64,000 nt of DNA from Tautonia plasticadhaerens (GTDB lineage: Bacteria; Planctomycetota; Planctomycetia; Isosphaerales; Isosphaeraceae): contig NZ_CP036426.1 of the NCBI RefSeq assembly GCF_007752535.1, positions 3,472,001 through 3,536,000 on the forward strand. Reading direction: 5' to 3'. The notes under the pieces are model-generated. The model searched no databases. It was given only the letters and a program-made list of their open reading frames with translations, and had not been told where the DNA came from. Shown piece by piece: positions 4,520 to 63,975 of this stretch (position 1 is the stretch's first letter; each line of letters starts with the position of its first letter). The position numbers and the translations under genes were made by a program.

Positions 4520-4547
4520 TTGCTGTTTATAGGGTTAGTGCTATGGT
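4520..4547 (+). promoter_or_regulatory. sigma70-type promoter, extended -10
   Basis: TTGCTG (4520-4525), a 16-nt spacer and TATGGT (4542-4547) preceded by TGC, which gives an extended -10 element. It points away from the surrounding late operon, toward the small membrane gene at 4683. The leader would be about 130 nt. The same TGC-TATGG core recurs at 5511 and 58130. Confidence 0.6.
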
Positions 4548-4682
4548 CGGCAGGTGGCTGCGGCGGCATTGACGGAAACGTTAGCTGTGTGTTGCCAGAT
4601 GGGCTAGAGCAACGGGGACATCTGTAGCCATTCAATCTCCGGCTCCAAATCCGACGCAGCCACACAACCGCAGGGAGGCGAT

Positions 4683-27955: not shown

Positions 27956-28518
27956 GCCGCCCCCGCGAATCGTGCCTGCAGCTGCCGCTCGCGGGCGTCC
28001 ATTGCCTCGAAGGCACTCAGCAGGGCCTGGAACAACGGCCAATCCTTCCGCTTGAATTCACCGAGCTGGGCTACGGTATCCTCCCTGGCCGCAACTGCTT
28101 TGCGGATATCGGCTTCTGTGTAATTCGCCTTGCCATCCCGCCAGGCGCCGATCCAGATGCTAAGGCCAACGCCCCGCTCCAACGCCATCTGCCCGATGGG
28201 GGAACGCATCAGCCGTTCGGCCAGCGCGGTGTTGGCGTGGCAGAAATACTCCTTCCGGTCCTGCGGGTTCGAGATGACAGTGCTGGACTGCCGCTCGGCC
28301 TTGAGGTGTTCCATGAAATGCGCGATGGTCGGTCGGGTCTTGCAGCTGAGCCGGACCTCTCGCCATGCTGCATCCAGAGCCTGCTCGCTGAATCTGCCCA
28401 AATCGTCGACGTAAGCCTTGATTTGGTCATCGCTCAGCATTCGCATCCCGAAATAGTTGACCATTGGATCGATGACAGCGCGTTTTACTTTGTCGTAGTT
28501 GATTTCCTTAGCTTGCAT
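27952..28518 (-). CDS. replication-associated protein, perhaps helicase loader
   Basis: A 188-residue, largely helical protein. The segment DDQIKAYVDDLGRFSEQALD and then TRPTIAHFMEHLKAE is the kind of helical repeat seen in small phage replication proteins that sit next to an O/DnaD-like initiator, like lambda P or DnaI-type loaders. It directly follows the initiator-like gene and overlaps it by 11 bases. The assignment rests on position and a weak pattern. Confidence 0.5.
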   Translation of the reverse strand: MQAKEINYDKVKRAVIDPMVNYFGMRMLSDDQIKAYVDDLGRFSEQALDAAWREVRLSCKTRPTIAHFMEHLKAERQSSTVISNPQDRKEYFCHANTALAERLMRSPIGQMALERGVGLSIWIGAWRDGKANYTEADIRKAVAAREDTVAQLGEFKRKDWPLFQALLSAFEAMDARERQLQARFAGAA

Positions 28519-29326
28519 TGAAATTCTCCCTCATGCGTTTGTCCTGTGCTATTCGTTCCTCCCTCGCCGCCTTGGCGGAAAGGATGGCGTGCGTGAAATA
28601 CCTGAAACTACCGATATCCCCTCCCTTGGCGGCGATGCGGTCATCCACCGAGGGGATGATGTCCTGCTCGACATCGCATCCGGCGTTGAGCCATTCATCG
28701 ATTTCGGGTGATGCGCGTGCCGCGAGCTGCGGCAGGCGGCCGCAGATGTAATCCCTGACCCGCCGGTGGTCGGGGTGGTTCTGGGCTGGCATCATCCGCG
28801 GTGATTTCGGAGGCGGCGGATGGGTCTCCTCGCGTGTGCGCGCGTGCGCGCCGTTCGCGACGTTGATTCCTTTACTGGATTCATAATTCATGATTCCTAT
28901 ACCTACCATGCAACTGCCGTTATCTAACGGTGCTTTAACGGTTAGGGCACCGTTATTTTCCTCAAGATGCTGATAATGCACCGTGTTTTTTTCGGTCGCC
29001 TCGGGGAGGCTGCTTTCGCGCTCCGTTTTGTGGGGCGATTGGTGCTGGCGGAACTTGTTTATCCAAATGTAAAGCAACGCATCGTGCACATAGAAGGTTA
29101 GGAAGCCCAACCGTGCCAGTTCCGTTAGATAACGGTTAAGTAACGGGAGATCGATGTCGTCGTACGGGAAGATCTGCTTTCTCAGCTTCTTGGGACGGTA
29201 TTCCAGCCGCCCTTCCTTGTCGGCCTCCGTCCACAACCCGATGAAAAGAAGCCTGGCGGCGAAGTCAAGTTCTGCCAAATGCTCGTTTTCGAAGAAGGAC
29301 GGCTTGATGTTGCGTGCTCGTGCCAT
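28508..29326 (-). CDS. phage replication initiator-like protein
   Basis: The 272-residue protein begins MARARNIKPSFFENEHLAEL and continues ARLLFIGLWTEADKEGRLEY, a start I know from many phage replisome-organiser or DnaD-like proteins with a winged-helix N-terminus (residues 1-100). The middle is Pro- and His-rich and disordered (REETHPPPPKSPRMMPAQNH). The C-terminal helical part resembles a DnaD-like tail. Good ribosome-binding site (TAAGGGATT). It likely starts replication; origins may lie in its own gene as in lambda. Confidence 0.7.
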   Translation of the reverse strand: MARARNIKPSFFENEHLAELDFAARLLFIGLWTEADKEGRLEYRPKKLRKQIFPYDDIDLPLLNRYLTELARLGFLTFYVHDALLYIWINKFRQHQSPHKTERESSLPEATEKNTVHYQHLEENNGALTVKAPLDNGSCMVGIGIMNYESSKGINVANGAHARTREETHPPPPKSPRMMPAQNHPDHRRVRDYICGRLPQLAARASPEIDEWLNAGCDVEQDIIPSVDDRIAAKGGDIGSFRYFTHAILSAKAAREERIAQDKRMRENFNAS

Positions 29327-30046: not shown

Positions 30047-31195
30047 ATGGAAGCGATCACCCCATCCGATGATCAGGCGAAAGCGATCCGGGCAATCGTT
30101 GATTGGTTCGGCGATGACAGCCGCGAGGAATTCTATCTGGCCGGTTTCGCCGGGGTCGGCAAGTCCACGATTGCCAACCTCGCCATCGAAGAGATCAAGG
30201 AGCAGCATAACGTCAGCAAGGTGCGAACCGCCGCATATACCGGCAAGGCCGCTTCCGTGCTCCGGAAGAAAGGCATCGAAGACGCCAGCACGATCCACAG
30301 CTTGATCTACACGCCGAAAGTGGATGAAGAGACCGGCGAGCTGAAATTCACCCTGTCGGAGGAGTCTGCGGCGGCGGAAGCAGACCTGATCGTGCTCGAC
30401 GAATGCTCCATGATCGACGACCGCCTGGCCGACGACCTGCGTTCCTTCGGCAAGAAAATCCTCGTCATGGGCGATCCTGGGCAGCTGCCGCCGGTCAATG
30501 GCCAGGGCGCGTTCACCCGCAACGTGCCGGACGTCTTCCTGCATGAAATCCACCGCCAGAGCGCCGAAAGCCCGATCATCGAGCTGGCCACGCTGGCGCG
30601 CCAGGGGCTGCCCATCCCCCGGAACTACCGGAAGGGCGACGTGGAAGCCATGGTGTTGACCAAGGCGACGCAGGAGCTGATCTATCGGGAAACCACCCAG
30701 CCGATCTGCGGCCTGAACCGCGTCCGCTGGACCTATACCCAGCGGATGCGTGCCCGGAAGGGTTTCAGCGGCGAGCATCCTGTGGCAGGCGAGCGGATCA
30801 TCTGCTGCCGGAACAATAACAAAAAGGGCTTGTTCAACGGCGGCATGGGGCAGTTGGTCACCCGGGGAGCGGACATCATCGGCGTGCGCGAGATCTATTC
30901 GCTCACCGTGGACATGGATGATCTGCACGGCACCACGGAGGATTTGCTGACCGACCCCTACCTCTTCGCCCACCACTTCAATGAGGGTAAGGCGCAGAAG
31001 ATCCAGGGCGCGCGGCCGATGCTGAACGAGTTCGATTGGGGATACATCATCACCGCGCACAAGGCTCAGGGCAGTTCCTGGGACCACGTGACGGTGATAG
31101 ATGACAGCGGGGCGTTTCGGGATAACCGCCGCAACTGGCTCTATACCGCCATCACACGGGCGGAGACTGGATTAACACTTTTGATGAGGGACTAA
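30047..31195 (+). CDS. SF1 DNA helicase (Dda/RecD-like)
   Basis: This 382-residue ATPase has Walker A GFAGVGKST at 33-41, Walker B with DECSM near 132-136, motif III GDPGQLPPV and motif VI YTAITRAE near the end. The order and length match T4 Dda-type 5'-3' helicases or the RecD2 core. It probably opens forks or branch intermediates for the replication and recombination genes that follow. Confidence 0.88.
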   Translation: MEAITPSDDQAKAIRAIVDWFGDDSREEFYLAGFAGVGKSTIANLAIEEIKEQHNVSKVRTAAYTGKAASVLRKKGIEDASTIHSLIYTPKVDEETGELKFTLSEESAAAEADLIVLDECSMIDDRLADDLRSFGKKILVMGDPGQLPPVNGQGAFTRNVPDVFLHEIHRQSAESPIIELATLARQGLPIPRNYRKGDVEAMVLTKATQELIYRETTQPICGLNRVRWTYTQRMRARKGFSGEHPVAGERIICCRNNNKKGLFNGGMGQLVTRGADIIGVREIYSLTVDMDDLHGTTEDLLTDPYLFAHHFNEGKAQKIQGARPMLNEFDWGYIITAHKAQGSSWDHVTVIDDSGAFRDNRRNWLYTAITRAETGLTLLMRD

Positions 31196-31971: not shown

Positions 31972-32886
31972 GTGCAGACGAGCAAAATTGAAACCGGAAC
32001 ACCCGAATGGCATGCCCAGCGTCGGACCGGGATCGGCGGGAGTGATTGCGCCGCCGTCCTCGGGCTCTCCAAATGGAAATCCCCGTATCAGCTCTACCTG
32101 GAGAAGATCGGCGAGGCCGAACCGGAAGACGAAACGTGGGAAATGATGCGGGGGAAGGCGATGGAGCCGCTGTTACGGCAGCATTACGCCGACACTACCG
32201 GGCAGGTCGTCATGCTACCTGATGGTGCAATTCGGAGCGATGCGTATCCTTTCATGATCTACAACCCGGACGGGTTGACCGAAGACCGACTGCAGGAGTT
32301 CAAAACGGCCGCGTACGGCAAGGAATGGGGTGAAGCAGGGAGTGACGAGATCCCGCATGAGTATCTCCTGCAGGTCCAGCACGGCATGATCGTGACGGGA
32401 AGGCAGGTCGCGGACGTCACCGTTTCGATCGCCTCCAACCGGCCGAAATACTTCGTTGTCCAGGCCGATCCCGAGTTGCAGGAGATCATCGTTGAGGCCG
32501 AGGCACAATTCTGGCGGATGGTGGAAGACCGCACCCCGCCCGAGCCCATCTCAAACGAAGATTGCGCCCGCATCTATAGGGCGGTGAGTCTGGGCGCGAG
32601 CACGTTAGCGACGGTAGATATCCAGGAGGCACTGGAGGAGCTGAAAGCACTGAAGGCTGTCGCGAAAAGGGTAGAAACCGAGGAGGAAGCGCTGCAAGTC
32701 AAAATCAAAGCCTATATGGGCGAATGCGAGTCGCTCGTGGACGAAGGTGGGAAGACCTTAGCGACATGGAAACTGGCGAAAGGTGCGGAGCGCATCGACG
32801 CCGCAAGCCTGAGGAAAGAGCAGCCTTCCATAGCTCAGCGATACACCGTTATCGGCGAGCCGAACCGGCGATTCCTGCTGAAATAA
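31972..32886 (+). CDS. YqaJ-type viral recombinase (exonuclease)
   Basis: A 304-residue protein with a GTG start at 31972. It carries the YqaJ pattern: EWHAQRRTGIGGSDCAAVLG near the start, YNPDGLTEDRLQEFKTA (the D and E-x-K of the lambda-exonuclease-like site), and YLLQVQHGMIVTG. The C-terminal third is a coiled coil. It degrades duplex ends to give single strands for annealing. The next gene codes for a likely partner. Confidence 0.85.
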   Translation: MQTSKIETGTPEWHAQRRTGIGGSDCAAVLGLSKWKSPYQLYLEKIGEAEPEDETWEMMRGKAMEPLLRQHYADTTGQVVMLPDGAIRSDAYPFMIYNPDGLTEDRLQEFKTAAYGKEWGEAGSDEIPHEYLLQVQHGMIVTGRQVADVTVSIASNRPKYFVVQADPELQEIIVEAEAQFWRMVEDRTPPEPISNEDCARIYRAVSLGASTLATVDIQEALEELKALKAVAKRVETEEEALQVKIKAYMGECESLVDEGGKTLATWKLAKGAERIDAASLRKEQPSIAQRYTVIGEPNRRFLLK

Positions 32887-41941: not shown

Positions 41942-42361
41942 ATGCAGCACAAAGCACGAAGGCGAAAGCGATTCTTCAGCAACCAGAAAGGCCGGTGCGG
42001 CTACTGCGAGGATGGGATGCGGTTTCCGGAGAGTGGCAAACCTCATCCGCTCGATGCGACGTTCGACCACCTGATTCCCCGTGCCCGGTGGCAAGGGGAT
42101 AAAGGCAGCCGTTCACGCAACAGCAACCTGGTGCTCTGCTGTCGCGATTGCAACGAAGCGAAGGCCAACATGACTCCGCGTGAGTTCCTTCGGGCGATCT
42201 GGCTGCTGGGCCAGCTGCCTGATTTTGAGATGATGATGCTCCCCTCGCCGCCCGACGGCATCCCGATATGCCTGCCTGGCCAGCCGACTGCCTGGCTGGA
42301 TGGCGCGGCGGAAATGCCGCCCCAAGAGGTCATGGCCAGCGTTTCTTCCACCGTGGCATAA
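41942..42361 (+). CDS. HNH endonuclease
   Basis: The 139-residue protein has C19-x2-C22 and C67-x2-C70 as zinc ligands and D42-H43 in ATFDHLIPRARWQ, with N60/N62, the HNH nuclease core. C-terminal extension is Pro-rich. I use the ATG at 41942, as the upstream ORF overlaps the previous gene. In siphophages an HNH protein can help terminase cut DNA, but this one is far from terminase; a homing-like role is also possible. Confidence 0.8.
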   Translation: MQHKARRRKRFFSNQKGRCGYCEDGMRFPESGKPHPLDATFDHLIPRARWQGDKGSRSRNSNLVLCCRDCNEAKANMTPREFLRAIWLLGQLPDFEMMMLPSPPDGIPICLPGQPTAWLDGAAEMPPQEVMASVSSTVA

Positions 42362-42431
42362 AGACAGGCGGCTCGGGGGATTCCGCCGTAACATTTCGCC
42401 GTATGCGTAGGGTGTATAAGGAAGCCAATTC

Positions 42432-42459
42432 TTGCTCCAAACCGGCTCGGCGCTATGAT
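42432..42459 (+). promoter_or_regulatory. relaxase promoter
   Basis: TTGCTC (42432-42437), 16-nt spacer, TATGAT (42454-42459), 30 bases before the relaxase ATG. It follows a 70-base gap after the HNH gene. Confidence 0.6.
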
Positions 42460-42489
42460 GCGGGTGACGCTCAACCGTGAGGCTGCCCC

Positions 42490-44136
42490 ATGATTAACGC
42501 CACCTTCCCCGCTAACGCTGAGGCTGCCATCGGCTACTACGGCCACGCGGGCACGGAGCTGGAGAAGGTCGGGGAATGGCAGGGCAAAGGGGCGGAGAAG
42601 CTCGGCCTGTCCGGTGCCGTGGATATGGCCGACTGGCGGGCGCTTGTGCGGGGAAAAGCCCCTGACGGCACCAAGCTCGCCCAGCGACTGCGGGATGACC
42701 GCCGGGTGCTGCTCGATCTGACACTCAGCGTCAACAAGGATACCGCTGTGCTCCTCTCGCTGGTCGATCCCCGGATTGAAGGGGTAATCCAGCGGGCAAA
42801 CGCGGTTGCGATGGAGCTGGCGGAATCCTACCTCGATACCCGCGTGAAGGGGCTGCTCGGCACGGAGACGGTGCAGTCGGCGGCGATGATCTCGGCACCG
42901 TTCTACCACCAGATCACCCGGGCGCGGGAGCCGGGCTACCACATCCACAACACGATCATCGCCCTCACGCCGTATAAAGACCGCTGGTATGCCCCGGAGT
43001 TTGACCGGCTGGTATCGAACAGCGACCGGATAAAACGGCTATTCCACAGCCAAGTCGCCCGGGGCATGCGGGAACTGGGCTACCAGACGGAGCTGACGAA
43101 AGACAATTTCCGCGTGGTCGGCTTCCCGGATTCCATTCGGCGGGAGTTTTCCACCGGACAGGGGAACATCGACCACGAGCAGGCGATGCGGGAGACGGCG
43201 CTGTCCGAGCAAATCCGCCGGACAAGCGATCCGGTCGAGCTGCGAAAGCTGGAGGGCAAGCTCGGCTTCGTCAAATCGCCGAAAGGCCGGGCGGCGCTGG
43301 CCGTGCAGGTGCGGGAGAAGAAGCAACGCGATCTCGATCCGGCAACGCTCAAGGCAGATTGGTGGGGCAGGCTCACGCCCGAGGAGGCAAACGCCCTCCA
43401 AGCCGTCCTCCGGCAGGCGTCCAGCCGTGAACCCAGCAAGTTGCCTGACCATTCCCGGCAATTCTTCGGCCAGTCGGTCAACCGGCTGAGCCAGCAGTAT
43501 GGCCGCGTGCCGGAGGAAGACCTGTTCACCGACGCCCTCAAAACCGGCGTGGGCGAGGTGACGCTGGGCGGCCTGCGGCAAACGCTCGAGCAATCCGAGC
43601 TGCTGCGGGTCACGGTGAACGGCACGCCCATGGTGCAGACATGGGAAAACCGCCAGAAGGAAAAGGAGCTATTGGCGTTCGCCCGTTCCGGCGGCATCGT
43701 CTGGATCAGCGGCAAGCCGGACGCGGCCACCGTCCGCGAGGCCGAGCAGCGTGCGGGCAAAAACCCGCTCTGGGTCAAGGATGCGGGCAGCCAGCCGTTT
43801 GCCGAGCTGCACCGACTGAGTCAGGCAGCTGAGGCCGAGCAGCGTCGCATTGTGCTCCAGGGCCTGCCGCCGCGGAACGCCCCTGATGGCCACACGCTCC
43901 GCCTGCTGCAAGAGGTGGCCGGGCTGAAACCGCTTGACGATAAGCCTTTGAAGCCACGGTCAAGCGTGCTAAAGCTCCTGCCGAAAGCATGGCGGGAGTC
44001 GATGCAGCAGCACGTTGGTCGGCTGAACCGGATGCATTTCTTCAAGTCCATCCAGCAGGAGCACGCCATCGATGAGCAGCGCACAAGAGCGGCTAAGGAG
44101 CAAGCTGAACGGCGTGAGGCCGTCTGGGAACGGTGA
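42490..44136 (+). CDS. MobF/TrwC-type relaxase
   Basis: This 548-residue protein carries the MobF relaxase domain in its first 300 residues. Tyr16-Tyr17 lie in the N-terminal AIGYYGHAGTEL, WQGKGAEKLGL follows, the acid D76 is in LLDLTLS, and the metal-binding triad is H140-x10-H151-x-H153, the same spacing as in TrwC. Residues 300-548 are charged and have no helicase motifs, so it is a relaxase without the usual helicase part. It should nick an oriT and stay joined to the 5' end. It ends 65 bases inside the next gene. A relaxase in a genome with a full siphophage set is unusual. Confidence 0.85.
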   Translation: MINATFPANAEAAIGYYGHAGTELEKVGEWQGKGAEKLGLSGAVDMADWRALVRGKAPDGTKLAQRLRDDRRVLLDLTLSVNKDTAVLLSLVDPRIEGVIQRANAVAMELAESYLDTRVKGLLGTETVQSAAMISAPFYHQITRAREPGYHIHNTIIALTPYKDRWYAPEFDRLVSNSDRIKRLFHSQVARGMRELGYQTELTKDNFRVVGFPDSIRREFSTGQGNIDHEQAMRETALSEQIRRTSDPVELRKLEGKLGFVKSPKGRAALAVQVREKKQRDLDPATLKADWWGRLTPEEANALQAVLRQASSREPSKLPDHSRQFFGQSVNRLSQQYGRVPEEDLFTDALKTGVGEVTLGGLRQTLEQSELLRVTVNGTPMVQTWENRQKEKELLAFARSGGIVWISGKPDAATVREAEQRAGKNPLWVKDAGSQPFAELHRLSQAAEAEQRRIVLQGLPPRNAPDGHTLRLLQEVAGLKPLDDKPLKPRSSVLKLLPKAWRESMQQHVGRLNRMHFFKSIQQEHAIDEQRTRAAKEQAERREAVWER

Positions 44137-44620
44137 GCCCACGCAGGCCGACGGCGTCGCCACGGCATCGTCCAGCAACAAGAAACGGGCGGAAGGGGCG
44201 AACCAGTCCAAGCTCTGCCTGCGGTACTTCCCGCTCGAAAGCAGCCCCGGATTCGATAACCGCTGGCTGGCCATGCCCTATTCCTCGATCTGGGACATCA
44301 GGGGCAAGCGGGATTTTTCGCAGATGGTCGTTCGCTACATGGACGGCAAGAAGGTCACGATTGACGGGCCGAACCTGAAATCCATCGCCGACCGGCTGGA
44401 AGGCGGCCGCCTGGGCGACGTGATTCAGGCCGATCCGATGGAAATGGCCGGGGAGCGGCACTGCGTCACGCTCACCGTGCGGGGCGATGAGCTGGAGCCG
44501 CTGCTGCAGGCGCTCAAGCTGTTCCGCACCGCGAAGGTGGATGGCGTTCACGCTGCGGACGATAGCGATCTGTTGCAATGCCTCGTGACCAAGCTCACGC
44601 TGGAGCAGGAGAAGGTGTGA
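44072..44620 (+). CDS. relaxase-linked hypothetical protein
   Basis: A 182-residue protein that starts 65 bases before the relaxase stop. It has a Ser/Asn-rich start and a beta-rich body (NRWLAMPYSSIWDIRGKRDF, RHCVTLTVRGDELEPLLQAL). Coupling suggests a mobilisation accessory factor; no family recognised. Confidence 0.6.
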   Translation: MSSAQERLRSKLNGVRPSGNGEPTQADGVATASSSNKKRAEGANQSKLCLRYFPLESSPGFDNRWLAMPYSSIWDIRGKRDFSQMVVRYMDGKKVTIDGPNLKSIADRLEGGRLGDVIQADPMEMAGERHCVTLTVRGDELEPLLQALKLFRTAKVDGVHAADDSDLLQCLVTKLTLEQEKV

Positions 44621-44702
44621 TGCTGGCGGTGGCATCCGGTGGGGATAAGCGAGCGAAGCGAGCGCGCGGCGGCGGTCGCGCCAGTTAGCTGGGTGACTGA
44701 AT

Positions 44703-44725
44703 GGGGCGGCGTGGCTAGCCGCCCC
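44703..44725. terminator. GC hairpin between convergent operons
   Basis: GGGGCGGC-N7-GCCGCCCC, no T run. It lies where the plus operon ends and the minus operon ends. Member of the hairpin family seen through 44.7-56.7 kb. Confidence 0.5.
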
Positions 44726-44732
44726 GTGGCGG

Positions 44733-45155
44733 TCAGGCGGCTTCGCCGGTGGCTGCTGCGTGAGCCTCGAATATCGCCTGATAATCCCGCTCCAGCTGCT
44801 CCGCGTTGTCATTCTCGCCAGCCGAATAGGCCAGCTCGATTTGCTCGCGGCCATGCTTCACCAGCGGTTCGATAGCCGCCAGCAGCTTCGGCGCGGCATG
44901 CATCAGCCGCACGCGGGCGGCGTTCTCCTCGTGCGTGCCGAACGGAGCGCCGGTGATTCGCTGGTAGAGGTCTTGCGCCTGCTGCTCGGTCTGGCAATCG
45001 GCGATGGCCTCCACGCCTTCTCCGTCGATGTGGCCGTAGAGCGTCCAGCAATCGGCTTCCGCCCGTTCGCAAACCTCGAAATAGAAATGGCCGGGCTTGT
45101 CAGGTTCTTCGTAGCGGCGGCACGGGCTGATTTCGTAGTTGTCGAATACCTTCAT
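44733..45155 (-). CDS. hypothetical protein
   Basis: A 140-residue protein with start MKVFDNYEISPCRRYEEPDK and AGGAAGGAAAA ahead. C-terminal half is a helical repeat rich in Ala, Glu and Gln. The N-terminal half has the shape FYFEVCERAEADCWTLYGHI. This kind of gene is common in plasmids and ICEs (last gene before mobilisation genes). Function unknown. Confidence 0.6.
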   Translation of the reverse strand: MKVFDNYEISPCRRYEEPDKPGHFYFEVCERAEADCWTLYGHIDGEGVEAIADCQTEQQAQDLYQRITGAPFGTHEENAARVRLMHAAPKLLAAIEPLVKHGREQIELAYSAGENDNAEQLERDYQAIFEAHAAATGEAA

Positions 45156-45853: not shown

Positions 45854-45884
45854 AGCAAACTCCATTTTGCTGTTAATCGTTAGG

Positions 45885-46130
45885 TGTGCGTTTCAGGTCG
45901 GCTTCTTCGCCGTCCTGAAACCTTGCCAAGCGGCGAGCTGGGCGGGGTGAATCCGCAAGGGTCGCCGGGCCGTCTGCACGGAGCGCAGCGCAGGAAGATG
46001 GTTCGGCGACTCGCGCAGCCCTTGCGGAGAGGGGGCGGAACTGCCCCCTCCTGCGTCAGGAATGCGCAGGGCCTGGTCGCCGCAAGGCGACGGAGCGAAC
46101 AGCGACCCCGGAGCACTCCGCCCGGACGCC
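45885..46130 (-). ncRNA. structured noncoding stretch, copy B
   Basis: A 246-base stretch without a gene between 45853 and 46131. It begins (plus strand, about 45888) with TTTCAGG / CCTGAAA arms around a GGC-ttcttc-GCC stem, has GGAGAGGGGGCGGAACTGCC (arms GGGGGC / GCCCCC) near 46020, and GGAGCGAACAGCGACCCCGG near 46090. The parts follow each other in the same order as in the 53.25-53.48 kb stretch (copy A). I infer a structured RNA upstream of a minus-strand gene; direction unsure. Confidence 0.4.
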
Positions 46131-46265
46131 CTACCCGGCATTCCGCTTCAGCGCCGCCCGCTTTCTGCATCTATCGCACGGGCAACTTGACAACCACAGA
46201 ATGCCCTTGATGGCTGCTGTCACAACGAAAGCCGCGACGCACAAAATCCACACCAATAAATTCAT
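46131..46265 (-). CDS. small membrane protein
   Basis: The protein has 44 residues from the ATG at 46265 (ATGA overlap). Hydrophobic segment WILCVAAFVVTAAIKGILW, then C-P-C-D-R-C-R and a basic end, possibly a metal site. Confidence 0.5.
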   Translation of the reverse strand: MNLLVWILCVAAFVVTAAIKGILWLSSCPCDRCRKRAALKRNAG

Positions 46266-49857: not shown

Positions 49858-51774
49858 TTACGCCGCTTCCGCCACGGCCTTGGCTTCTTCCGCACCGAAC
49901 GCCATGCCTTCGGGGAGCCACTGTCGCAGCGCTTCCACCTGCTCCGGCGTTTTGCCGTGCGTCTGCGGTTCGGCAAACGCTTCGTTCAGTTGCGTCACCA
50001 GCGCCGCCCGTTTCGAGTTCCGGCGGTGCGATACCCACAGGGCACCGAGGACGCGCTCGCCGACCTCGAGCAACTGCCCGATCTTGATGCGGCCAAAGAA
50101 GTTGGCGGCAGTCGGTCGCCAGTATGCGGCCACGTTCACCCCGGTCTGAGCCAGTGCGGCATCGTAGACCGTCCGCTGCTTGCCAGCGCCGGGAGCGAGC
50201 TTCGGCTGGAGCGTCATCGCCGTGCAGTAGGCCAGAATCCGGTGCTTGTCGGCCTCGTCCAGCCGCTGGAAGGCGGCGAGCTGGGCGGCTTCGGTCTTCT
50301 CCCGCAGCCACGCCAGCGGCAGGGCTTCGCGGATGGCTTCCAGTCGTGCGGCGGCGGCGGTCTGCTCGCCTCCGCTGGGGCGTGGGTAGCTCTGGTTGAA
50401 GCTGACGTTCGCCCCGTCAAACCCGCCCTGGCTGGTCAGCACCTTCCGGGCGGCGGTCACCACCAGCAGGTCGAAGGCGATGGCCGGGTTTTCGGCGATG
50501 GCGACCTGAGCCACCTGCGTCCGGTAGGCTTTCAGGTCGTCGATCAGCGCCTGCGAGAGGGCGGGCTTGGCCGGGGCGGATTCTTCGCTGTCTTCCTCGT
50601 CGCTGCTGGCCTGAGCGGTGGCGGCGGCTTTCTTGTCCTCCGGCTTCACCAGCCCTTTGTCGATGCTGAGCCTGCCGCCCCAGACCACTCTGACGAAGCA
50701 TCCGGCCAGCTTCTTCTGCTCGGGGTCGAAGTCGGTGAATGATTCCAGCTTCTCCTCGACAGCTTCTCGTTTCTCTTCCGCCAAGCGGCACTGCTCATAA
50801 AGGGATTCCAGCTCGTCATCGTCTTCGGTCGCGTCAATCGCGTCCTCGATCCGCTGTTCCTCAGCCTTTGCCGCTTCCAGTTCGGCCATCAGGTCGGCGG
50901 GAGCATCCAGCGGCACGGGCTGAATCCGGCCAAATTTCGAGAGCGTCGAGTAATCGCCCTCGAAATCCGCCTCCACCCATCCCCAGCCATCGGCGCGGAG
51001 CTTTTCGGCTTCCGCTTCCAGCTTTTCCCCGGCCAGGCGGTGCAGCAGCGTCATGTCCTCCAGATACACGTCCTCCCCGAACAGGTCAGACCTCGTCTTG
51101 CCGCCAGCGGCTTGATAGGCTTCCAGCCCGACAAATGCGGTCAGCTTGCTGTCGGCCTTCGCCATCTTGTCGGTCAGCAGCGAGCGAATTTCGCTGGCGT
51201 GGTGAATCTGCCAGCCATTCTTCACCTGCTTGTAAACCTTCAGCTGCCGCTTGCGGTCATCCGTGATGGTGAAGGCTTCCAGCACCTCCAGCTTCAGCTT
51301 CCCCTCCCGGTACTCTTCCAGCAGTTCCGGCGCGACACGCCCCAGCTTGAGCCGCTGGAGCACATGCTTCTCCGTCTTGCCGAACCGCTGCCCGATCTGT
51401 TCGGCGGTTTCGCTCTTCTCCACCAGCGCGGCGAAGGCTTCAAATTCGTCCGCCGGATGCATCGCCAGCCGCACCATGTTCTCGGCGAGGCTCATTTCCT
51501 GTGCCTGTTCCTCGGTAACGATCAGGCAGGGCACCGCGTGGTCTTCCGGCAGCTGGCCTTCCGCGATCAGGGCTTGCAGCGCCTCCAGTCGGCGGCTGCC
51601 AGCGCTGACGAAATACTTGCCCTTCTTGCCGGGGTAGGCGGTCAGGTTCTGCATCAGGCCGTGGGCGAGGATGCTTGCTTTCATTTCGTCCAGCGGGGAC
51701 TTGCTGCTGCTGCCACGCCTCACGTTCAAGGGGGACTTGCTAAGTTTCTTTACTTCGATGGTTTGTGCAGTCAT
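49858..51774 (-). CDS. ParB/Srx-type protein, large plasmid form
   Basis: The 638-residue protein has the ParB N-terminal nuclease-like domain (LSKSPLNVRRGSSSKSPLDE, LMQNLTAYPGKKGKYFVSAG, then SRRLEALQAL), then AENMVRLAMHPADEFEAF and a HTH (GQRFGKTEKHVLQRLKLGRV). The C-terminal 400 residues are helical with an acidic stretch. Such long ParB-like proteins without ParA are common in plasmids and ICEs. Role in partition or DNA-binding regulation is likely. It overlaps the zinc-ribbon gene start region by 35 bases. Confidence 0.85.
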   Translation of the reverse strand: MTAQTIEVKKLSKSPLNVRRGSSSKSPLDEMKASILAHGLMQNLTAYPGKKGKYFVSAGSRRLEALQALIAEGQLPEDHAVPCLIVTEEQAQEMSLAENMVRLAMHPADEFEAFAALVEKSETAEQIGQRFGKTEKHVLQRLKLGRVAPELLEEYREGKLKLEVLEAFTITDDRKRQLKVYKQVKNGWQIHHASEIRSLLTDKMAKADSKLTAFVGLEAYQAAGGKTRSDLFGEDVYLEDMTLLHRLAGEKLEAEAEKLRADGWGWVEADFEGDYSTLSKFGRIQPVPLDAPADLMAELEAAKAEEQRIEDAIDATEDDDELESLYEQCRLAEEKREAVEEKLESFTDFDPEQKKLAGCFVRVVWGGRLSIDKGLVKPEDKKAAATAQASSDEEDSEESAPAKPALSQALIDDLKAYRTQVAQVAIAENPAIAFDLLVVTAARKVLTSQGGFDGANVSFNQSYPRPSGGEQTAAAARLEAIREALPLAWLREKTEAAQLAAFQRLDEADKHRILAYCTAMTLQPKLAPGAGKQRTVYDAALAQTGVNVAAYWRPTAANFFGRIKIGQLLEVGERVLGALWVSHRRNSKRAALVTQLNEAFAEPQTHGKTPEQVEALRQWLPEGMAFGAEEAKAVAEAA

Positions 51775-52457: not shown

Positions 52458-53216
52458 TTAATTACTCTGGCTTTCGGCTACCGCCTCCGGCTTCTCAAAC
52501 ACCACGCAGGTATCGTGTAGGCCGGGAATAAACGCCGTGTTGTACCGCCTGCGGCTGCTGGTCGAGCCGTGCGAGAACCGGATAATGTCGGTCACGCGCT
52601 GCTCATATCCCAGCGAGAAAGCCGCCTGCTTTGTCAGATAGGTAAGCGGCAGGAATCCAAGCTCGCGGTCGTTGTAGTCGCCGATTAGCACGGCCAGTTT
52701 CCCACCCGGTGACAGGCGGTGCCAAATCGCCTGCATGGCTTCTTTGAGCTTTTCCACGAAGTCGGTCAGCGTTGGCTGCGCGGACAAATCACGCGGGTCA
52801 TTGCTGTAGGCAATCATGCGCCAGTAAGGCGGATGAATCCAAGCGAAGTCGAATACCTCACCCTCCGTGGCAGTTTCCAGTTCTTCCGCGTTGCAGGCAT
52901 CCAAACCGGTGCGGAGGTCGCCGGAATAGCACGGGATTCCGAGGCTGCGGCATACATCCCCGGCAGTACCCGAGCCGCTCATAACATCCAGCACGCTTTC
53001 CGGCTGGAAATACAGAATCAGGTCGCGAATCAGGTTGCCGCTGCAATTTCCGCGATAGTTGCGGTTGCCGTAAATTCCGGCATCGGCGTTGTGGTAGAGG
53101 CTGGTAAGCCACGGCACGGGGCTCTCGTTCCGGGGCGGTTGCGGAAGCTGGACGTACCGGGGGGCGCGGTAGGACTGGCGGAAGGCTTCTAAGTGTGCGT
53201 TAGTTGTCATTTGCAT
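52458..53216 (-). CDS. DNA methyltransferase (N4/N6-type)
   Basis: The 252-residue protein has the SAM motif DVMSGSGT (77-84) and the catalytic motif HPPYW (128-132), a variant of DPPY/W with His in place of the first Asp, and later GGKLAVLIGDYND. No target-recognition domain is obvious and no restriction enzyme stands beside it. It probably protects the element's DNA or regulates genes. Start at 53216 or 53210. Confidence 0.82.
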   Translation of the reverse strand: MQMTTNAHLEAFRQSYRAPRYVQLPQPPRNESPVPWLTSLYHNADAGIYGNRNYRGNCSGNLIRDLILYFQPESVLDVMSGSGTAGDVCRSLGIPCYSGDLRTGLDACNAEELETATEGEVFDFAWIHPPYWRMIAYSNDPRDLSAQPTLTDFVEKLKEAMQAIWHRLSPGGKLAVLIGDYNDRELGFLPLTYLTKQAAFSLGYEQRVTDIIRFSHGSTSSRRRYNTAFIPGLHDTCVVFEKPEAVAESQSN

Positions 53217-53228
53217 CTTTCCTTATCT

Positions 53229-53480
53229 TAGTTGATTTGGGTTTCAGCGGGGGGCTTGCTTTGAAGCCCGCCGCTGAAACCCTGGCTCGCGCCGAGCAGC
53301 GGGGGTGGGAGCGGAAAGGCCTGAGCACGGTGAGGGGTATCTCCCGGCTTTGTCGCTCGCGGCAAAGTTGGGGATACGCCGTGCGAACCGTAGGCGAGCG
53401 CAGCGAGGGCCTTGAAGCGGAGAGGGGGCAGGAGCCCCCTGAACGCTTGCATGGGAACTGGGCGTGGCCTGTTGGCCACG
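53229..53480 (-). ncRNA. structured noncoding stretch, copy A
   Basis: Part of a gene-free stretch (53217-53677). It begins with a long inverted repeat (GGGTTTCAGCGG / CCGCTGAAACCC with GGGCTT / AAGCCC inside) just upstream of the methyltransferase start, then GAGCAGCGGGGGTGGGAGCG, CGAGCGCAGCGAGG, GGAGAGGGGGCAGGAGCCCC and GTGGCCTGTTGGCCAC. The same elements in the same order occur at 45.9-46.1 kb. Beyond 53480 I see no gene before 53678. Confidence 0.4.
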
Positions 53481-53677
53481 CGCCGCTTGGGCTATGGCAT
53501 TGCTTGCGATAGGGATGGAAACCGGATGGCCGAGACGCTTCAGCGGCTCGGTGCGCAGCATGACAGCCCGGCCCGAAGGGATCGCCGTGAAACCGCCGGT
53601 GAAAGACTTCCCGCCACCGGTGCCGCTCCGGCTGGCCATCGCCCCGGCCGCCATTAGAATAGCGCCGGAGGTGCCCC

Positions 53678-54352
53678 ATGCCGCTGAGCGATGCCGAGCT
53701 GGCCCTGATCGCTGCTATCCACGCTGATCCGCGAAACGACGCCCCGCGGCTGGCCTATGCCGACTGGCTGGAAGCGAACGGCCTGGGCGACGAAGCCAAA
53801 TTCATCCGCGTCCAGTGCGAGCAGCCGTATTTCTCGCTCATCACGCGGGATGGGATTCGGCCTGCCACGGATTCCGGGCGGATCAAGTTTGAAGACCCCG
53901 AGCGGATGGAGCAGGCGATTGAGCTGCTGGGCCGCATCTACCCCTCAGAGCGGTACCCGGAGACCCGCTATTACGATGAGTACCGCCGTGGCCTGCCGCT
54001 CTACGAGGAAAAACTGAACGACGGGAACCTGCGGTACAGCGCGGCACAGATCAGAGCCGACATGTCGCCGCTGGTGCGGTATCGGCTCCATCTGGAGACT
54101 TCCAGGCTAGCCGACTGGCTGAACCATCCAATCATGCAGTTCGTGGATGTGCTCCGGATTTCACCCGGCTGGGAAGATGACGATGACGTCGAAGATATCC
54201 GCGCCGATGATCTGCGGGCACTGGCCGCCTCCCCACTGATCGACCGCCTGGAGAAGCTGGGCCTGGGCGTCGACATGGCACCGGACGCGGTAGAGCTTGC
54301 CCGCTCCCTCGAGCGTCGCGTGGAAGTGGAGTACGGAGACTGGACGATTTAA
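53678..54352 (+). CDS. TIGR02996-domain protein
   Basis: A 224-residue protein that starts with MPLSDAELALIAAIHADPRN and DAPRLAYADWLEANG followed by DEAKFIRVQCEQ, the TIGR02996 domain (a short motif often in repeat-containing proteins of Planctomycetes and Myxobacteria). The rest is helical with no leucine-rich repeats. Function unknown. It points rightward, divergent from the methyltransferase. Confidence 0.7.
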   Translation: MPLSDAELALIAAIHADPRNDAPRLAYADWLEANGLGDEAKFIRVQCEQPYFSLITRDGIRPATDSGRIKFEDPERMEQAIELLGRIYPSERYPETRYYDEYRRGLPLYEEKLNDGNLRYSAAQIRADMSPLVRYRLHLETSRLADWLNHPIMQFVDVLRISPGWEDDDDVEDIRADDLRALAASPLIDRLEKLGLGVDMAPDAVELARSLERRVEVEYGDWTI

Positions 54353-54738: not shown

Positions 54739-56400
54739 ATGGCCAAGCAATCCCGTCAGAGATCGGCCCAGTCTGATAGGATCAAAGCGGCTCCTTACGC
54801 TGCCGACGATCTGCCAGCAGAGTCTGCGCGAATTGCAGACAAAGATACATCGAGCGCCTCGCCGGATGGATCAACCCGATCTGCAAAAGACTTCCTATAT
54901 CAGAATTTTTCAGAATCAGAGCTGGTGCTGGGCTTGGTTGCGGCGGTCGGCACCGACCTCAAGAGCGTGATCGGAACGATTGAAGATCGTTTGAAAATAT
55001 TTGGATACACGACCATTGTAATCAAGATCTCCAAGGACGTCATTCCACGCGTTGCCAAGATCAAACCCCTTAACGAGGGGAGTGCTGGCTACGTCCGCAC
55101 TGACGCCTTGATGACTGCCGGAGATGATGCCCGAAAACTATCGGATGATTCGTCGATCCTGGCACTGGGGGTAGCAGCCAGAATCGCGTCTGATCGCAAT
55201 TATGAAGGCAGCGATATTACGCAGGGCCTTAAGCCCAAATTTGCCTACATTGTGGATTCCCTGAAGCACCCCTCCGAAGTGACTCGCCTGCGGGAGATTT
55301 ACCCGGAATCGTTCTATCTCGTTGGAGTACACGCTGACGAAAATCGCAGGAGGGAGGTGTTGACTGAAGAGAAGAGAATGACGGAAGACGAAGCTACCCG
55401 CTTGATGCAGCGGGATGAGGACGAACAGCTGTCATATGGGCAGCGGACGAGCGACACATTCCATATGTCGGACTTCTTTGTTCGGTTCGACGAAAGCGCG
55501 GACAAGCTGAAGCAGGATCTTTGGCGATTCCTCGACATTATTTTTGGTAACCCGTACATTACGCCGCTGTTCGATGAGTTTGCCATGTTCATGGCATTCT
55601 CGGCAGCGCTGCGCTCAGCAGATTTGTCCAGACAGGTCGGGGCGGTGCTTGCGAAGAATGAGGAACTCTTGTCAACCGGAGCTAACGATTGCCCCCGGTT
55701 TGGGGGTGGGCTTTATTGGCCATACTACGATGCTCCCAGTCGACGCTACGCAGACGTTCCTGGAGGCAGGGATTACACCCTTGGCGTCGACTCCAATAAG
55801 GCTGAGCAGCAAGACATCATCGAAAGCATTTTAAAGGACTCTAGCAATCATGTTAAAGACCTAGATGCGTTTCGAGCGGTGCTGAGGAGCAGCCGAATCG
55901 GTGATCTTACTGAGTACGGCCGCGTCGTGCACGCCGAAATGGAGGCGATGCTGTCCTGTGCGCGGAACAATATCAGTTGCCGTGATGCCACGCTTTATGG
56001 GACGACCTTCCCATGTCATAATTGCGCCAAGCATATAATTGCGGCAGGCATTAAGAGAGTCGTTTACGTCGAGCCCTATCCAAAGAGCAAGGCCGTTGAT
56101 TTCCACAGAGATTCGCTTGTGCTCGGATTCTCCGAACGCGAACAAGCAGTCCGCTTTGAACCATTCGTCGGCGTAGGCCCTAGAAGGTTTTTCGACCTCT
56201 TCTCCATGGGCCTAAGCTCCGGATATCCGGTGGTGAGGAAGGACAAGCGAACAGGTAAGGTCATTGATTGGAAACCAGAGACAGCGAGGCTCAGGCTTCA
56301 ACTGATGCCGCTGTCATATCTCCAACTTGAAACCTTGGCCGGATCACTATTCACGGATTTCCTGATCGAGAAGGAGGGCACGGATGGCCAGCCAAAATGA
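54739..56400 (+). CDS. anti-phage dCTP deaminase (DcdV/AvcD-like)
   Basis: The 553-residue protein has two parts. Residues about 60-270 form a P-loop-like kinase domain opening with ELVLGLVAAVGTDLKSV (G-x4-G-T-D), the start seen in DcdV. Residues about 290-530 form a deoxycytidylate deaminase with H398-A-E400 and P425-C426-x2-C429, after SRQVGAVLAKNEEL. Family members deplete dCTP/dCMP during phage infection. Length and order match DcdV. The gene body is less GC-rich than the neighbours, which suggests transfer. It is followed, with 17 bases overlap, by a small gene. Confidence 0.85.
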   Translation: MAKQSRQRSAQSDRIKAAPYAADDLPAESARIADKDTSSASPDGSTRSAKDFLYQNFSESELVLGLVAAVGTDLKSVIGTIEDRLKIFGYTTIVIKISKDVIPRVAKIKPLNEGSAGYVRTDALMTAGDDARKLSDDSSILALGVAARIASDRNYEGSDITQGLKPKFAYIVDSLKHPSEVTRLREIYPESFYLVGVHADENRRREVLTEEKRMTEDEATRLMQRDEDEQLSYGQRTSDTFHMSDFFVRFDESADKLKQDLWRFLDIIFGNPYITPLFDEFAMFMAFSAALRSADLSRQVGAVLAKNEELLSTGANDCPRFGGGLYWPYYDAPSRRYADVPGGRDYTLGVDSNKAEQQDIIESILKDSSNHVKDLDAFRAVLRSSRIGDLTEYGRVVHAEMEAMLSCARNNISCRDATLYGTTFPCHNCAKHIIAAGIKRVVYVEPYPKSKAVDFHRDSLVLGFSEREQAVRFEPFVGVGPRRFFDLFSMGLSSGYPVVRKDKRTGKVIDWKPETARLRLQLMPLSYLQLETLAGSLFTDFLIEKEGTDGQPK

Positions 56401-56834: not shown

Positions 56835-57659
56835 TCAGCGGAAAGCATTCTTATCCCCGGCCTCGAACGCCCGGAATCGCTCCTCCGCCTTCTGAGCGAA
56901 ATCACTCGTCAGGTCCTGCACCTTCCCATGCTGGACCCGGTCCAGATCGCGTAGCTCGATGAGTGATTCCTGTCTCCCGTCCCGGTTGATCAGGATGCCG
57001 CCGAAGAAGAACGCGGGGCTGCCGAAGTGTGTGTTCGCCAGGAGCCGCAGGAAGGCATCCTTCGTTTCCTGGTAGATGGCTTCTGTCATCACGACGAAAC
57101 GCCTCGGGTCACCCACATCCCCCGCGCCGAGGATGGCGTCTTTGTGCCTTAGGACGATTTGCCGGATCGTCTCCTGCTGGTAATCGTCTACCGGGTAATC
57201 GCAGGGCTCCTTGTGGGTAATCGTTCCTGCCTCTAGAGCTTTGAGCGCCGCCGCCGCTGCGCCGCAACAATCGCTCGGCGTAGATTGGCCAGGCCGGACC
57301 ACCTTGCCGACCTGCCCGTCGCTGGTGATGCCGACATGCGGGCCGAAAAACATCAGCGCTGCGCCGGGCTCAGGGATATGGTGGGAGAACGCGCCAAGCC
57401 CGGTCATGCCCGCGAACGGGAAGCCATTGAGGCCGCCCTGGACGAACGGGCCAACCATATCGGTCCGGGGCAGCCCGACACTGTTGAGGTCGTCGCTGCA
57501 AATGCTGGTCAGGAAGGCGACTTGCTCCGGGCTGATGCCGTACTCGCGATTTGCATAAGCTAAAAATGCATTGATGTAGTAGCTGGATTCAACCGCCCTG
57601 GGATAGTAGGAGCTCACGTTGCTGCCAGCGCGGATATCGAGCACGGCGCGGTCCTCCAT
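56835..57659 (-). CDS. LCIB-type beta-carbonic anhydrase homologue
   Basis: The protein has about 274-277 residues (ATG 57659; GTG 57668 possible). TSICSDDLN, GGLNGFPFAGMTGLGAFSHH, FGPHVGITSDGQVGKVVRPG and SDCCGAAAAAL are the LCIB/C signature. Cys in CSDD (57), His in PHVGI (111) and Cys in DCCG (134/135) are the zinc ligands, with the D-R pair expected nearby. The family hydrates CO2 in algae and some bacteria. No linked carboxysome or bicarbonate transporter gene is seen. Its purpose on a mobile element is unclear. Confidence 0.82.
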   Translation of the reverse strand: MEDRAVLDIRAGSNVSSYYPRAVESSYYINAFLAYANREYGISPEQVAFLTSICSDDLNSVGLPRTDMVGPFVQGGLNGFPFAGMTGLGAFSHHIPEPGAALMFFGPHVGITSDGQVGKVVRPGQSTPSDCCGAAAAALKALEAGTITHKEPCDYPVDDYQQETIRQIVLRHKDAILGAGDVGDPRRFVVMTEAIYQETKDAFLRLLANTHFGSPAFFFGGILINRDGRQESLIELRDLDRVQHGKVQDLTSDFAQKAEERFRAFEAGDKNAFR

Positions 57660-57783
57660 AAATGGCACGGGGGGAATCCGAGCCTATTCTCACCGTGCCG
57701 TGGGCGGCATGCAACCGTCCTTTCGGATCTCGCGTAAGCCATTTGTGGAAAACAAGATGGGACTGCGGCGGCACGGCCCGCGG

Positions 57784-60593: not shown

Positions 60594-61415
60594 TTAGTCC
60601 ACCAGCTCCGCCATCCGTGCGGTGAGCGTCCACAACGCCTTGTTCAGGCGAATATCACGATCCACGGCCTTCACCGGCCTGGTCGTGGTGCGGCGGCCGG
60701 TCGGCGTCGTGCCGCTGATGCCGCCCTTCAACGCGCCTTCCTGCACGGTATTGAAGGTAGCCCAGAGGGACCGGCTGCCGTCCGGTGCGGGCTGATCCTC
60801 GCTGCGGCGGGGGGTGAGCAGCTGGTCGGGCGTGATGTTCGGTGCATCGAGCAGGACATGGGCGGCCTCCGCGAATGCCGTCTGTGCCGGTGCCGGGAGA
60901 GCGAGCTGCTTCCAGGCGTCGATCTGCTGCAGCACCTTCGGCGTGTCCTCGACGATACGGAACGTCGCGTCGATGATCCGCTGGCTGAAATCCGCCCCGC
61001 CCGCATGCTTGACGCTGATCGAGCCGAAATCGCTGCTGGCCACGACAAGGCCATTCGAGCAGACCAAACGAAAGATGCCGGAGGCGAAGCGGTACGCCGC
61101 CGTGCCATCATGGCTGTTTGATAGCACAAGCTCCGGCAACTCGGCCCCGACCGTCTGCGGCGTCAGGTAGTCGGAATGGCGGAACCGGAGCATGTGCCGG
61201 GTGTAGGCCTGCTTCCCCTCGATCCTGCTGCGGCTCTGTGCCGCCTTGACCGGGAAGAAGCCGCGGTCGCGGAGGATATCCACGACTTCGATGGTGGGGA
61301 CGTGCCGGTAGCGGCCGGACATGCGGTGCCACGGTTCGGAGGCGAACACGCTGGGGCAGGTGCGGCGGAGGGTGGCGGTGTCGAGCACGGCGGGCAGGTT
61401 CTGGGTGGCGGACAT
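60594..61415 (-). CDS. DUF932 protein (phage/plasmid-like TIGR03299 group)
   Basis: The 273-residue protein carries SRSRIEGKQAYTRHMLRFRH, GAELPELVLSNSHDGTAAYR and SGIFRLVCSNGLVVASSDFG, the DUF932 core. These proteins are typical of plasmids, ICEs and some phages; function is not known. GGAG stands before its ATG. Between 61416 and 61582 I see no gene. Confidence 0.85.
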   Translation of the reverse strand: MSATQNLPAVLDTATLRRTCPSVFASEPWHRMSGRYRHVPTIEVVDILRDRGFFPVKAAQSRSRIEGKQAYTRHMLRFRHSDYLTPQTVGAELPELVLSNSHDGTAAYRFASGIFRLVCSNGLVVASSDFGSISVKHAGGADFSQRIIDATFRIVEDTPKVLQQIDAWKQLALPAPAQTAFAEAAHVLLDAPNITPDQLLTPRRSEDQPAPDGSRSLWATFNTVQEGALKGGISGTTPTGRRTTTRPVKAVDRDIRLNKALWTLTARMAELVD

Positions 61416-63587: not shown

Positions 63588-63594
63588 TATTGTC
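63588..63594 (+). repeat. target site duplication, right copy
   Basis: TATTGTC, matching 62100-62106 exactly, directly next to the right inverted repeat. Confidence 0.85.
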
Positions 63595-63975
63595 AAATGT
63601 CAGGCGGTACGGCTTTGCTTCTTCCACTGTCATCGTGACCCGGCCGAAAGCGCATTCCTTGAGCATACTGCAAAGAGCAGCAATGGCTTGACGCGGACAG
63701 ATGGCCGCGAATGCTTCGCCATGCTCGATGGCGCATTTCATGACCGCCTCGTACAAGATATGCCCGTTGGTGGCCACTGCCTTTAGCTGTTTGCCATCGT
63801 ATTTGAAATAGACGCCATTGAGGTAATAGCGGGTTTCATCGTCGCTCATAAATGGGGTTATGACTTTCAGCTGCTCTCTCAGATTCTTTGCCTCGAAAAT
63901 GAAAGTCGGAAACGTCTTCTCGGTCATATACACTCCGCAATTTGCCGGGCTTCATTGCCCATGCGCAGGGAGGAC

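Follow-up and report, generated by a model that had tools for sequence, protein, structure and literature searches.

A temperate phage lineage that carries a MobF relaxase and a predicted coupling protein, exemplified by a prophage of Tautonia plasticadhaerens

The 64,000-nucleotide stretch of the Tautonia plasticadhaerens chromosome analyzed here (the window; G000:C1:3472001-3536000, where C1 is the contig NZ_CP036426.1 of 8,668,938 bases; G, C, and L numbers denote genomes, contigs, and loci) lies inside an integrated temperate phage, and a relaxase of the MobF/TrwC type belongs to that phage. The surprising point is that relaxase and coupling protein, as recognized from their sequences, belong to a phage lineage in conserved synteny. 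The best single reading, to which we assign a probability of roughly 0.55, is that a conjugative DNA-processing module belongs stably to the genomes of a temperate phage lineage and that this module offers a mobilization route. The module comprises the MobF relaxase, a VirD4/TraG-type coupling protein, the adjoining membrane proteins, and probably a cis site. The relaxase gene overlaps a second gene at its end:

42490-44136, plus strand: MobF/TrwC-type relaxase, 548 aa (profile matches, structure-chain matches, residue alignment), with the relaxase domain at residues ~12-294 and a degenerate helicase remnant at residues ~419-479
44072-44620, plus strand: overlapping downstream gene, 182 aa (from the list of open reading frames, ORFs)

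Profile and residue comparisons confirm that the first ORF encodes a MobF/TrwC relaxase domain, as the original prediction had it: the proposed PF08751 (TrwC) search gave a match at 5.1e-40 and 138.3 bits (cut-off, 25) over residues 12-294, the NCBIfam MobF model NF041492 scored 133.6 bits (cut-off, 100), and the nearest solved chains were those of TrwC (2cdm/1omh, 7e-22). The TIGR02686 relax_trwC model stayed under its 145.5 cut-off with 111.4 bits, and a PHROG search of the protein gave no match at 0.01. When the protein was aligned with 14 relaxases from the host family, Y16, K83, H140, H151, and H153 were invariant in all 15 sequences and D76 was kept in at least 90% of them, so that the window relaxase has the expected tyrosine, aspartate, and three histidines in the H-x10-H-x-H arrangement. 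A second tyrosine pair a few residues on is usual in MobF/TrwC proteins, not defining; the same alignment has DYY at this place in most relatives and GTELE in the window relaxase. The reading frame is intact, with a third-position GC signal of 0.81, and the protein is the single PF08751 match in the whole G000 genome. A single-sequence AlphaFold2 model (mean pLDDT, 44.5) was too poor for use. The accessory gene that had been noted after the relaxase is present, with a 65-nt overlap. Relatives carry a gene of 135-170 aa that overlaps the relaxase or lies directly 3' of it; this equivalence is positional only, as no sequence homologs of 44072-44620 were found among the 9 loci compared. The claim that the relaxase has its own promoter was not confirmed: a simple consensus scan of 42000-45000 found 0 sigma-70-like sites, with 0.2 expected.

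The ends of the element are marked by a repeat and, at the right, by genes outside the window:

L003:10793-11827, right of the window: tyrosine integrase (PF00589, 4e-18)
L003:10614-10796: excisionase-like helix-turn-helix (HTH) protein

A 19-bp exact repeat at C1:3449591 and C1:3547942 is the longest between the two stretches searched (the next has 16). Its left copy lies ~70 nt ahead of the stop codon of an aminotransferase-like gene; its right copy, ~115 bp upstream of the integrase, leads on into what was originally the 3' end of the aminotransferase-like gene. The site is empty in a congener (G003, locus L059): the gene is uninterrupted there, and both element flanks match this locus, collinear with a stretch 6 kb further on. 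With both repeats counted, the element has 98,370 bp and is integrated, not a free plasmid. The original prediction had inferred a phage-plasmid, and the ParB-like proteins at 49858-51774 and L003:2868-3650 would suit a phage-plasmid with its own replicon. A phage-plasmid replicates extrachromosomally and usually has no integrase, however, whereas this copy sits on an 8.67-Mb chromosomal contig between att repeats, with a tyrosine integrase and an empty site in a relative. For this copy, that identity is rejected as very improbable.

The prediction was right that the relaxase lies within a phage genome. The element has the genes and sites expected of a temperate tailed phage: terminase large subunit (TerL), portal, major head protein, tail proteins, endolysin, integrase, and att sites. 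The tail fibre, tape measure, head, portal, and TerL genes were assigned by PHROG matches, and the same scan found an AAA protein among the phage genes of the window.

542-3592, minus strand: tail fibre / central tail protein J (PHROG 5616 and 31)
5806-7524, minus strand: tail tape measure protein (PHROG 1716)
19041-20342, minus strand: major head protein (PHROG 10, 3e-66)
22507-23895, minus strand: portal protein (PHROG 12, 5.5e-70; PF04860, 1.4e-72)
23899-25311, minus strand: TerL (PHROG 38, 8e-102)
28508-29326, minus strand: phage replication-initiation-like protein (PHROG 12556, 2e-42)
30047-31195, plus strand: Dda-like SF1 helicase (PHROG 325, 3.7e-91; 65% relative in G004)
31972-32886, plus strand: RecE-like exonuclease (PHROG 434, 8.9e-83)
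49858-51774, minus strand: ParB-like protein (PHROG 7783, 5e-82; 48-49% relatives in G035 and G004)
60594-61415, minus strand: DUF932 protein (PF06067, 2.8e-38; 55-61% relatives in 4 of the 20 MobF loci compared)
L002:18249-18761, left of the window, within the element: endolysin
L002:8955-15242, minus strand: DarB-like antirestriction protein, 2095 aa (PHROG 10089, 1417 bits)
L003:2868-3650: ParB-like protein

The same arrangement recurs in relatives. Among the 45 host-family genomes, 16 contain a total of 28 distinct relaxase places (31 rows, three of which are second pieces), and five of these places lie <20 kb from a portal or TerL match (G000, G001:C10, G004:C1, G011:C27, and G011:C4). 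Five is a lower bound, because the portal and TerL models cover only some virion types. Conversely, nine TerL loci of the G000 type occur in six genomes; four are linked to a relaxase, and the five unlinked ones belong to genomes (G012, G013, and G023) that have no relaxase match at 1e-10. The window relaxase used alone as a query is too divergent: it found nothing in viral contigs and no relative in genome contigs. With an alignment of two closer relatives (A4) as the query, three virus records came up, along with two distant loci from Verrucomicrobia/Opitutaceae assemblies. The records with a relaxase relative, all from IMG/VR, are G046 (61 kb), G047 (143 kb), and L122 (28 kb). G046 encodes, by PHROG, a TerL (2e-27), a portal (1.8e-123, although PF04860 does not match), a major head protein (6e-85), and an integrase (1e-26); G047 has a portal (PF04860, 1e-49) and a TerL (6.6e-25); in the 21 kb examined of L122, neither the virion proteins compared nor PF04860 found a match. 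A match to the relaxase in a phage collection, MT836143.1 (27%), is a 16-kb unannotated faecal scaffold. Among the 20 matches listed out of at least 5000 matching plasmid records, a Planctomycetes bacterium had the lowest E-value.

Seven loci are thus virion linked: G000, G001:C10, G004, G011:C27, G011:C4, G046, and G047. As far as the contigs reach, the order TerL, relaxase, T4CP (type IV coupling protein), integrase holds in all seven, and in each of them the relaxase starts 15-19.4 kb from TerL, in the direction leading away from it. The T4CP follows the relaxase in six, the G011:C27 contig ending 5 kb past the relaxase. Five of the elements end with an integrase, and the contigs of G001:C10 and G011:C27 stop before one is reached; the integrases of G011:C4 and G047 were identified by their similarity to those with profile matches. 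DarB-like genes stand at the far end in G000, G001, and G011:C27. Two further elements have att pairs of their own: a 64-bp repeat beside an intact tRNA-Leu encloses ~119.6 kb in G004, and a 46-bp repeat beside an intact tRNA-Pro encloses ~54.6 kb in G011:C4.

The virion genes themselves vary. Tail genes, including a sheath family, are common to G004, G011:C27, G046, and G047, and G004 has a portal, TerL (4.9e-16), tail sheath (1.3e-38), tape measure, and integrase (1.2e-50); G000 and G001 share a different set, and the virion proteins of G011:C4 match those of G000 only in TerL and a small adjoining gene. G035, G038, and G003:C56 also have the relaxase with a small gene behind it, along with a ParB-like gene and a T4CP; no match to the virion proteins compared was found there in 80 kb each. 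The ParB-like, methyltransferase, and DUF932 genes of the window recur at MobF loci, the ParB-like gene at 49858-51774 at those with and those without virion genes. The module is thus part of a wider element family, some members of which are phages. DarB-like relatives, too, were seen at MobF loci both with and without detected virion genes.

These comparisons also bear on whether a prophage and a separate mobilizable element merely lie side by side here, by chance or misassembly. The module can exist alone, as G035, G038, and G003:C56 suggest, and a transposase stands beside a shortened beta-clamp-like gene at 62-64 kb. Against this, both parts lie here between a single pair of att repeats and share a single integrase, two other elements likewise have both parts within att pairs of their own, and order and spacing are kept in seven loci, two of them classed as viral records. 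We consider a chance neighborhood scarcely credible; tandem elements and misassembly are rejected on the three att-bounded units and the seven syntenic loci. The same arrangement in other genomes and virus records disfavors a chimeric join, in line with the earlier description of a single unit.

The predicted coupling protein lies right of the window, within the same att-bounded element, and is followed by four genes:

L003:4216-5703: VirD4/TraG-type coupling protein (T4CP), 495 aa (PF02534, PF12696)
L003:5707-6273, directly after the T4CP: membrane protein (relative found in G011:C4)
Between L003:5707-6273 and 6960-7991: 174-aa protein
L003:6960-7991: 343-aa protein with an N-terminal hydrophobic segment (relatives in G003, G004, and G035)
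L003:8032-8640: 202-aa protein (relatives in G004, G035, and G003)

By profile match, Walker A motif, and membrane segment, L003:4216-5703 qualifies, marginally, as a T4CP. The Walker A motif is intact (GSSGYGKT), residues 4-25 form a hydrophobic N-terminal segment, and no other protein of the genome matches PF12696 at E <= 0.01. Three relatives join it in a subfamily (A2). This subfamily matches classical VirD4/TraG proteins from elements in the same family (A3; hhalign probability, 98.5%; E, 3.9e-15), among them the G004 and G035 members with PF02534 matches of 4e-73 and 3.7e-73, and it also matches the coupling protein IcmO/DotL (3e-10). Relatives of the neighboring genes were sought with jackhmmer among the ORFs of nine loci, so the E-values are not comparable with those of large searches. 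The four genes after the T4CP gave no Pfam match at the thresholds used, barring a nonsignificant one of 0.036, and the ParB-like protein at L003:2868-3650 has positional equivalents only, no sequence homologs being found in the nine loci compared.

The last part of the module would be a site at which the relaxase acts, and we propose the following segment as a candidate origin of transfer (oriT):

53505-53586, plus strand: conserved noncoding cis site, oriT candidate (starts TGCGATAGGGAT, has a small local inverted repeat, and ends GGATCGCC)

The segment would suit a replication origin, or a site of partition by the ParB-like proteins, just as well. The only ORF that reaches into it is a weak one (53204-53512), and only with its end. 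An identical 11-mer, GCGATAGGGAT, lies 137-140 bp ahead of the relaxase in G004, L122, G001, and L124, where the surrounding DNA is otherwise dissimilar between two pairs of these loci. Elsewhere in the 1.75 Mb of compared loci (some overlapping, short duplicate loci left out), it occurs only in G011:C27 and at position 53506 of the window, and all copies are on the relaxase strand. It is found once each in five of the seven virion-linked loci and in L122; the G011:C4 and G046 loci lack it. In 12 whole genomes or records, it was counted 24 times, versus 6 for the reversed control: once in G000 (the window copy), once in G001 (137 bp upstream of the relaxase), four times in G004 and seven in G011 (one copy in each being the site), and 0-4 times in genomes without a detected virion-linked locus. 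With such counts, the 11-mer alone is not specific. The longer segment carries more weight as evidence: it is the best match in the 98-kb element for the sites of three of five relatives, namely G011:C27 (1.5e-9, 88% of 42 bp), G004 (7.4e-5), and L122 (6.7e-4), and the window site is weakly matched in G011:C4 (0.001). The G001 and L124 sites match the virion-free MobF loci L040 and L041 (2e-7 and 7e-7).

No conserved structure is claimed for the cis site, because it folds no better than shuffled sequences (z, -0.14 to -0.94; 4 sequences); Rfam gave no credible match. Nor is there an upstream motif common to all MobF loci: no 8-mer in the 27 upstream regions rose above shuffles (the best was in 6 regions; the maximum of 50 shuffles was 7). 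The original prediction had pointed to four gaps as places to search for an oriT. Three of them contain inverted repeats (3 at 44600-44760, 5 at 45860-46260, and 8 at 53210-53700), of which GC-rich DNA gives many; the fourth, at 42300-42560, has none. In the same gap as the cis site, 53239-53282 forms a 19-nt inverted repeat, 95% complementary, with a 6-nt spacer.

Several observations weigh against a mobilization route. Transfer by TrwC and F TraI needs helicase activity, and the helicase half of the window relaxase looks like a dead remnant: the Walker A segment and motifs IV-VI are gone. The cis site and the relaxase are 9.4 kb apart here, searches of the 98-kb element with the G001 and L124 sites miss this site, and the G046 locus is without the 11-mer. 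The predicted coupling protein scores 20.2 bits against PF02534 (cut-off, 20.1) and 20.2 (whole protein) and 23.3 bits (second search) against PF12696 (cut-off, 22), which is marginal, and a phmmer search against the PDB gave no match. Finally, VirB4, the mark of a mating channel, was recognized neither with PF19044 in 15 genomes nor above the cut-off with TIGR00929 in the 45 host-family genomes.

The loss of the helicase had been anticipated in the original prediction. After a linker, the window relaxase keeps a stretch (~residues 419-479) that aligns with helicase motifs II-III of its best relatives (blastp, 5e-5 to 8e-5 in a small sequence set), in which VDEA of motif II has become VKDA and GDxxQ of motif III is broken. 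As only this remnant is left of an SF1 helicase with its Walker A, DEA(G/S), and GDxxQ motifs, we class the window protein as a relaxase-domain protein, not a relaxase-helicase; the motif losses suggest an in-frame derivative with a dead helicase. Its relatives are mostly encoded in open frames of ~800-1050 aa, such as that of G001 (PF08751, 1.7e-60; AAA_30, 5e-39), and the G011:C4 relaxase of 327 aa ends ahead of the helicase. Locus L033 (G037:C94) has two relaxases ~5 kb apart, at 2473-5094 and 10292-11788; the second (498 aa) stops within the helicase past the Walker A region, another route to helicase loss.

The mobilization module might be real in the lineage and decaying in this copy, a relic carried by the phage. 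The lost Walker A, the altered motifs II and III, and the absent second tyrosine pair would fit, as would the distant cis site and the divergent coupling protein, whose PF12696 score is the lowest of its four-member group (23.3 versus 28.6-33.7 bits). We nevertheless find decay doubtful, given that the frames are intact and the third-position GC of the relaxase is strong, that Y16, D76, K83, H140, H151, and H153 are retained, that the Walker A of the T4CP is unbroken, and that the cis site keeps 88% identity over 42 bp to that of G011:C27.

The missing channel leads to a different alternative. For the PF19044 search, the control gave a signal in 7 of 14 genomes; with TIGR00929, 17 of the 27-82 first-look candidates per genome were scored against a strict cut-off that 1 of 14 controls passes, and weak, short P-loop matches (18.7-26.3 bits) were seen in 27 of the 45 genomes, none inside the element. 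When 45 further element proteins were scanned with Pfam, 14 families were found at 0.001, and no family for transfer or secretion was among them. By both models, then, the element is not recognizable as a self-transmissible integrative and conjugative element (ICE), although divergent systems are possible; with an integrase, a relaxase, and no recognized mating channel, it has the makeup of an integrative mobilizable element. Three ORFs lie directly upstream of the MobF relaxase at locus L110 (G035:C1, 5694-5698 kb), which has no detected virion genes; their starts, FTLIE(L/I)SIVLV(V/I), are presumably pilin-like and could bear on the missing channel.

With no VirB4 recognized in the host family, the relaxase might serve the replication of phage DNA, nicking an origin (perhaps 53505-53586) for rolling-circle synthesis that feeds packaging or stabilizes the excised circle, with no transfer of single-stranded DNA (ssDNA) between cells. 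ICE relaxases can drive plasmid-like rolling-circle replication (ICEBs1/Tn916), phage replication genes are nearby, and the helicase half is lost both here and in G011:C4, as if nicking sufficed. On the other hand, a T4CP, which replication would not need, accompanies the relaxase in six of seven virion-linked loci (the contig of the seventh stops too early) and in all three virion-free loci read in detail, and the phage has a replication-initiation-like gene of its own. We regard a purely replicative role as unlikely; this role and decay of the module are the chief rivals of the mobilization reading.

On the mobilization reading, the integrase and the small excisionase-like HTH protein would excise the element at its att sites, and the excised circle would be packaged by TerL and leave in virions, as the head, tail, and endolysin genes suggest. 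Alternatively, the relaxase would nick the cis site, for which 53505-53586 is the best candidate, and stay on the cut end, and the coupling protein would take the bound relaxase to a type IV channel. Because no VirB4 was recognized, this channel would come from a helper or be of an unrecognized kind. With the relaxase's own helicase apparently dead, this copy would require another helicase, either the phage Dda-like enzyme (possibly in trans) or a host one. The two ways of spreading once proposed for this element thus gain a coupling protein and a candidate cis site and lose by the unrecognized VirB4 and the dead helicase; they remain an inference. It is improbable, though conceivable, that the lineage has a VirB4-less transfer apparatus of its own, made of relaxase, coupling protein, and 2-3 conserved membrane or exported proteins; it would then spread both in virions and as ssDNA, and the virion cassette, whose head, packaging, and tail genes vary from element to element (one with a contractile-tail sheath), would be exchangeable while the transfer arm persists.

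The element and its relatives have further genes outside these subjects. Near the left end, L002:2431-5511 (minus strand) encodes a Type ISP restriction-modification enzyme (PF18135, 4e-95). An LCIB_C-type beta carbonic anhydrase lies inside the prophage at 56835-57668 (minus strand; PF18599, 1e-43) and is possibly an auxiliary metabolic gene, and the 553-aa protein of 54739-56400 (plus strand; PHROG 9198, 4e-144), with a dCMP-deaminase-like C-terminal half, is possibly a defence or nucleotide gene. Within 62133-63933 (minus strand), a DDE transposase (PF13546, 4e-24) stands beside a 124-aa ORF with a beta clamp central domain (PF02767, 2.6e-11); the insertion seems to have interrupted the clamp gene. 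Elsewhere in the same chromosome (G000:C1:2401897-2402925), there is a second portal gene of the prophage type. In the head-gene block of G004, L105:3941-5470 (minus strand, 510 aa) matches an RNA ligase (PHROG 755, 5e-25) over its first 154 residues.

Phages and conjugative elements are usually distinguished by their route out of the cell. The relatives share one layout, and phages of this kind may move from cell to cell by two routes. With both gene sets in a stable, recurrent genome type, one could test directly whether a temperate phage is mobilized as ssDNA, and such genomes could show what selects for both routes and how phage-like and ICE-like elements interconvert. They also carry a warning: classifiers built on relaxases and classifiers built on phages may each count these elements as their own.

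The relaxase resembles TrwC of R388 and TraI of F in its profile matches and in its tyrosine, aspartate, and three histidines; unlike them, it has no working helicase and no second tyrosine pair, and it resides in a phage. No report of the present phage lineage was found in the literature searched, outside of which lie most subscription papers and preprints. In the available text of the respective sources, prophages transmitted by conjugation appear rarely (PMC5154133), and among the mobile elements of Mycobacterium abscessus, relaxases are on plasmids, not on prophages (PMC8092301). Phi1207.3 of Streptococcus is a prophage that moves in a conjugation-like way; the word "relaxase" is not in the main text of that source as available, and the mechanism is left open there (PMC4260502), whereas here genes for a possible transfer mechanism are present. 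According to the passages available, phage-ICE tandems make up <0.1% of islands in the TIGER/Islander survey (PMC12424338); like them, our element joins phage and conjugation genes in one integrated island, but unlike the tandems named there, it forms a single unit between att sites, its internal order is conserved, and it has no recognized VirB4. With integrative mobilizable elements (iMOB/IME), as the available text describes them (PMC11389934), it shares an integrase, a relaxase, and the lack of a recognized mating channel of its own, and it adds tailed-phage virion genes and a coupling protein, its oriT being only a candidate. The P1-like plasmids with mob/oriT and the phage-plasmids (PMC10879196 and PMC12977533, in their accessible portions) likewise combine a phage-derived genome with a relaxase. 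The latter source describes P1-related plasmids without phage genes; the element of T. plasticadhaerens, in contrast, keeps its virion genes, is integrated, and has the combination in synteny across its relatives.

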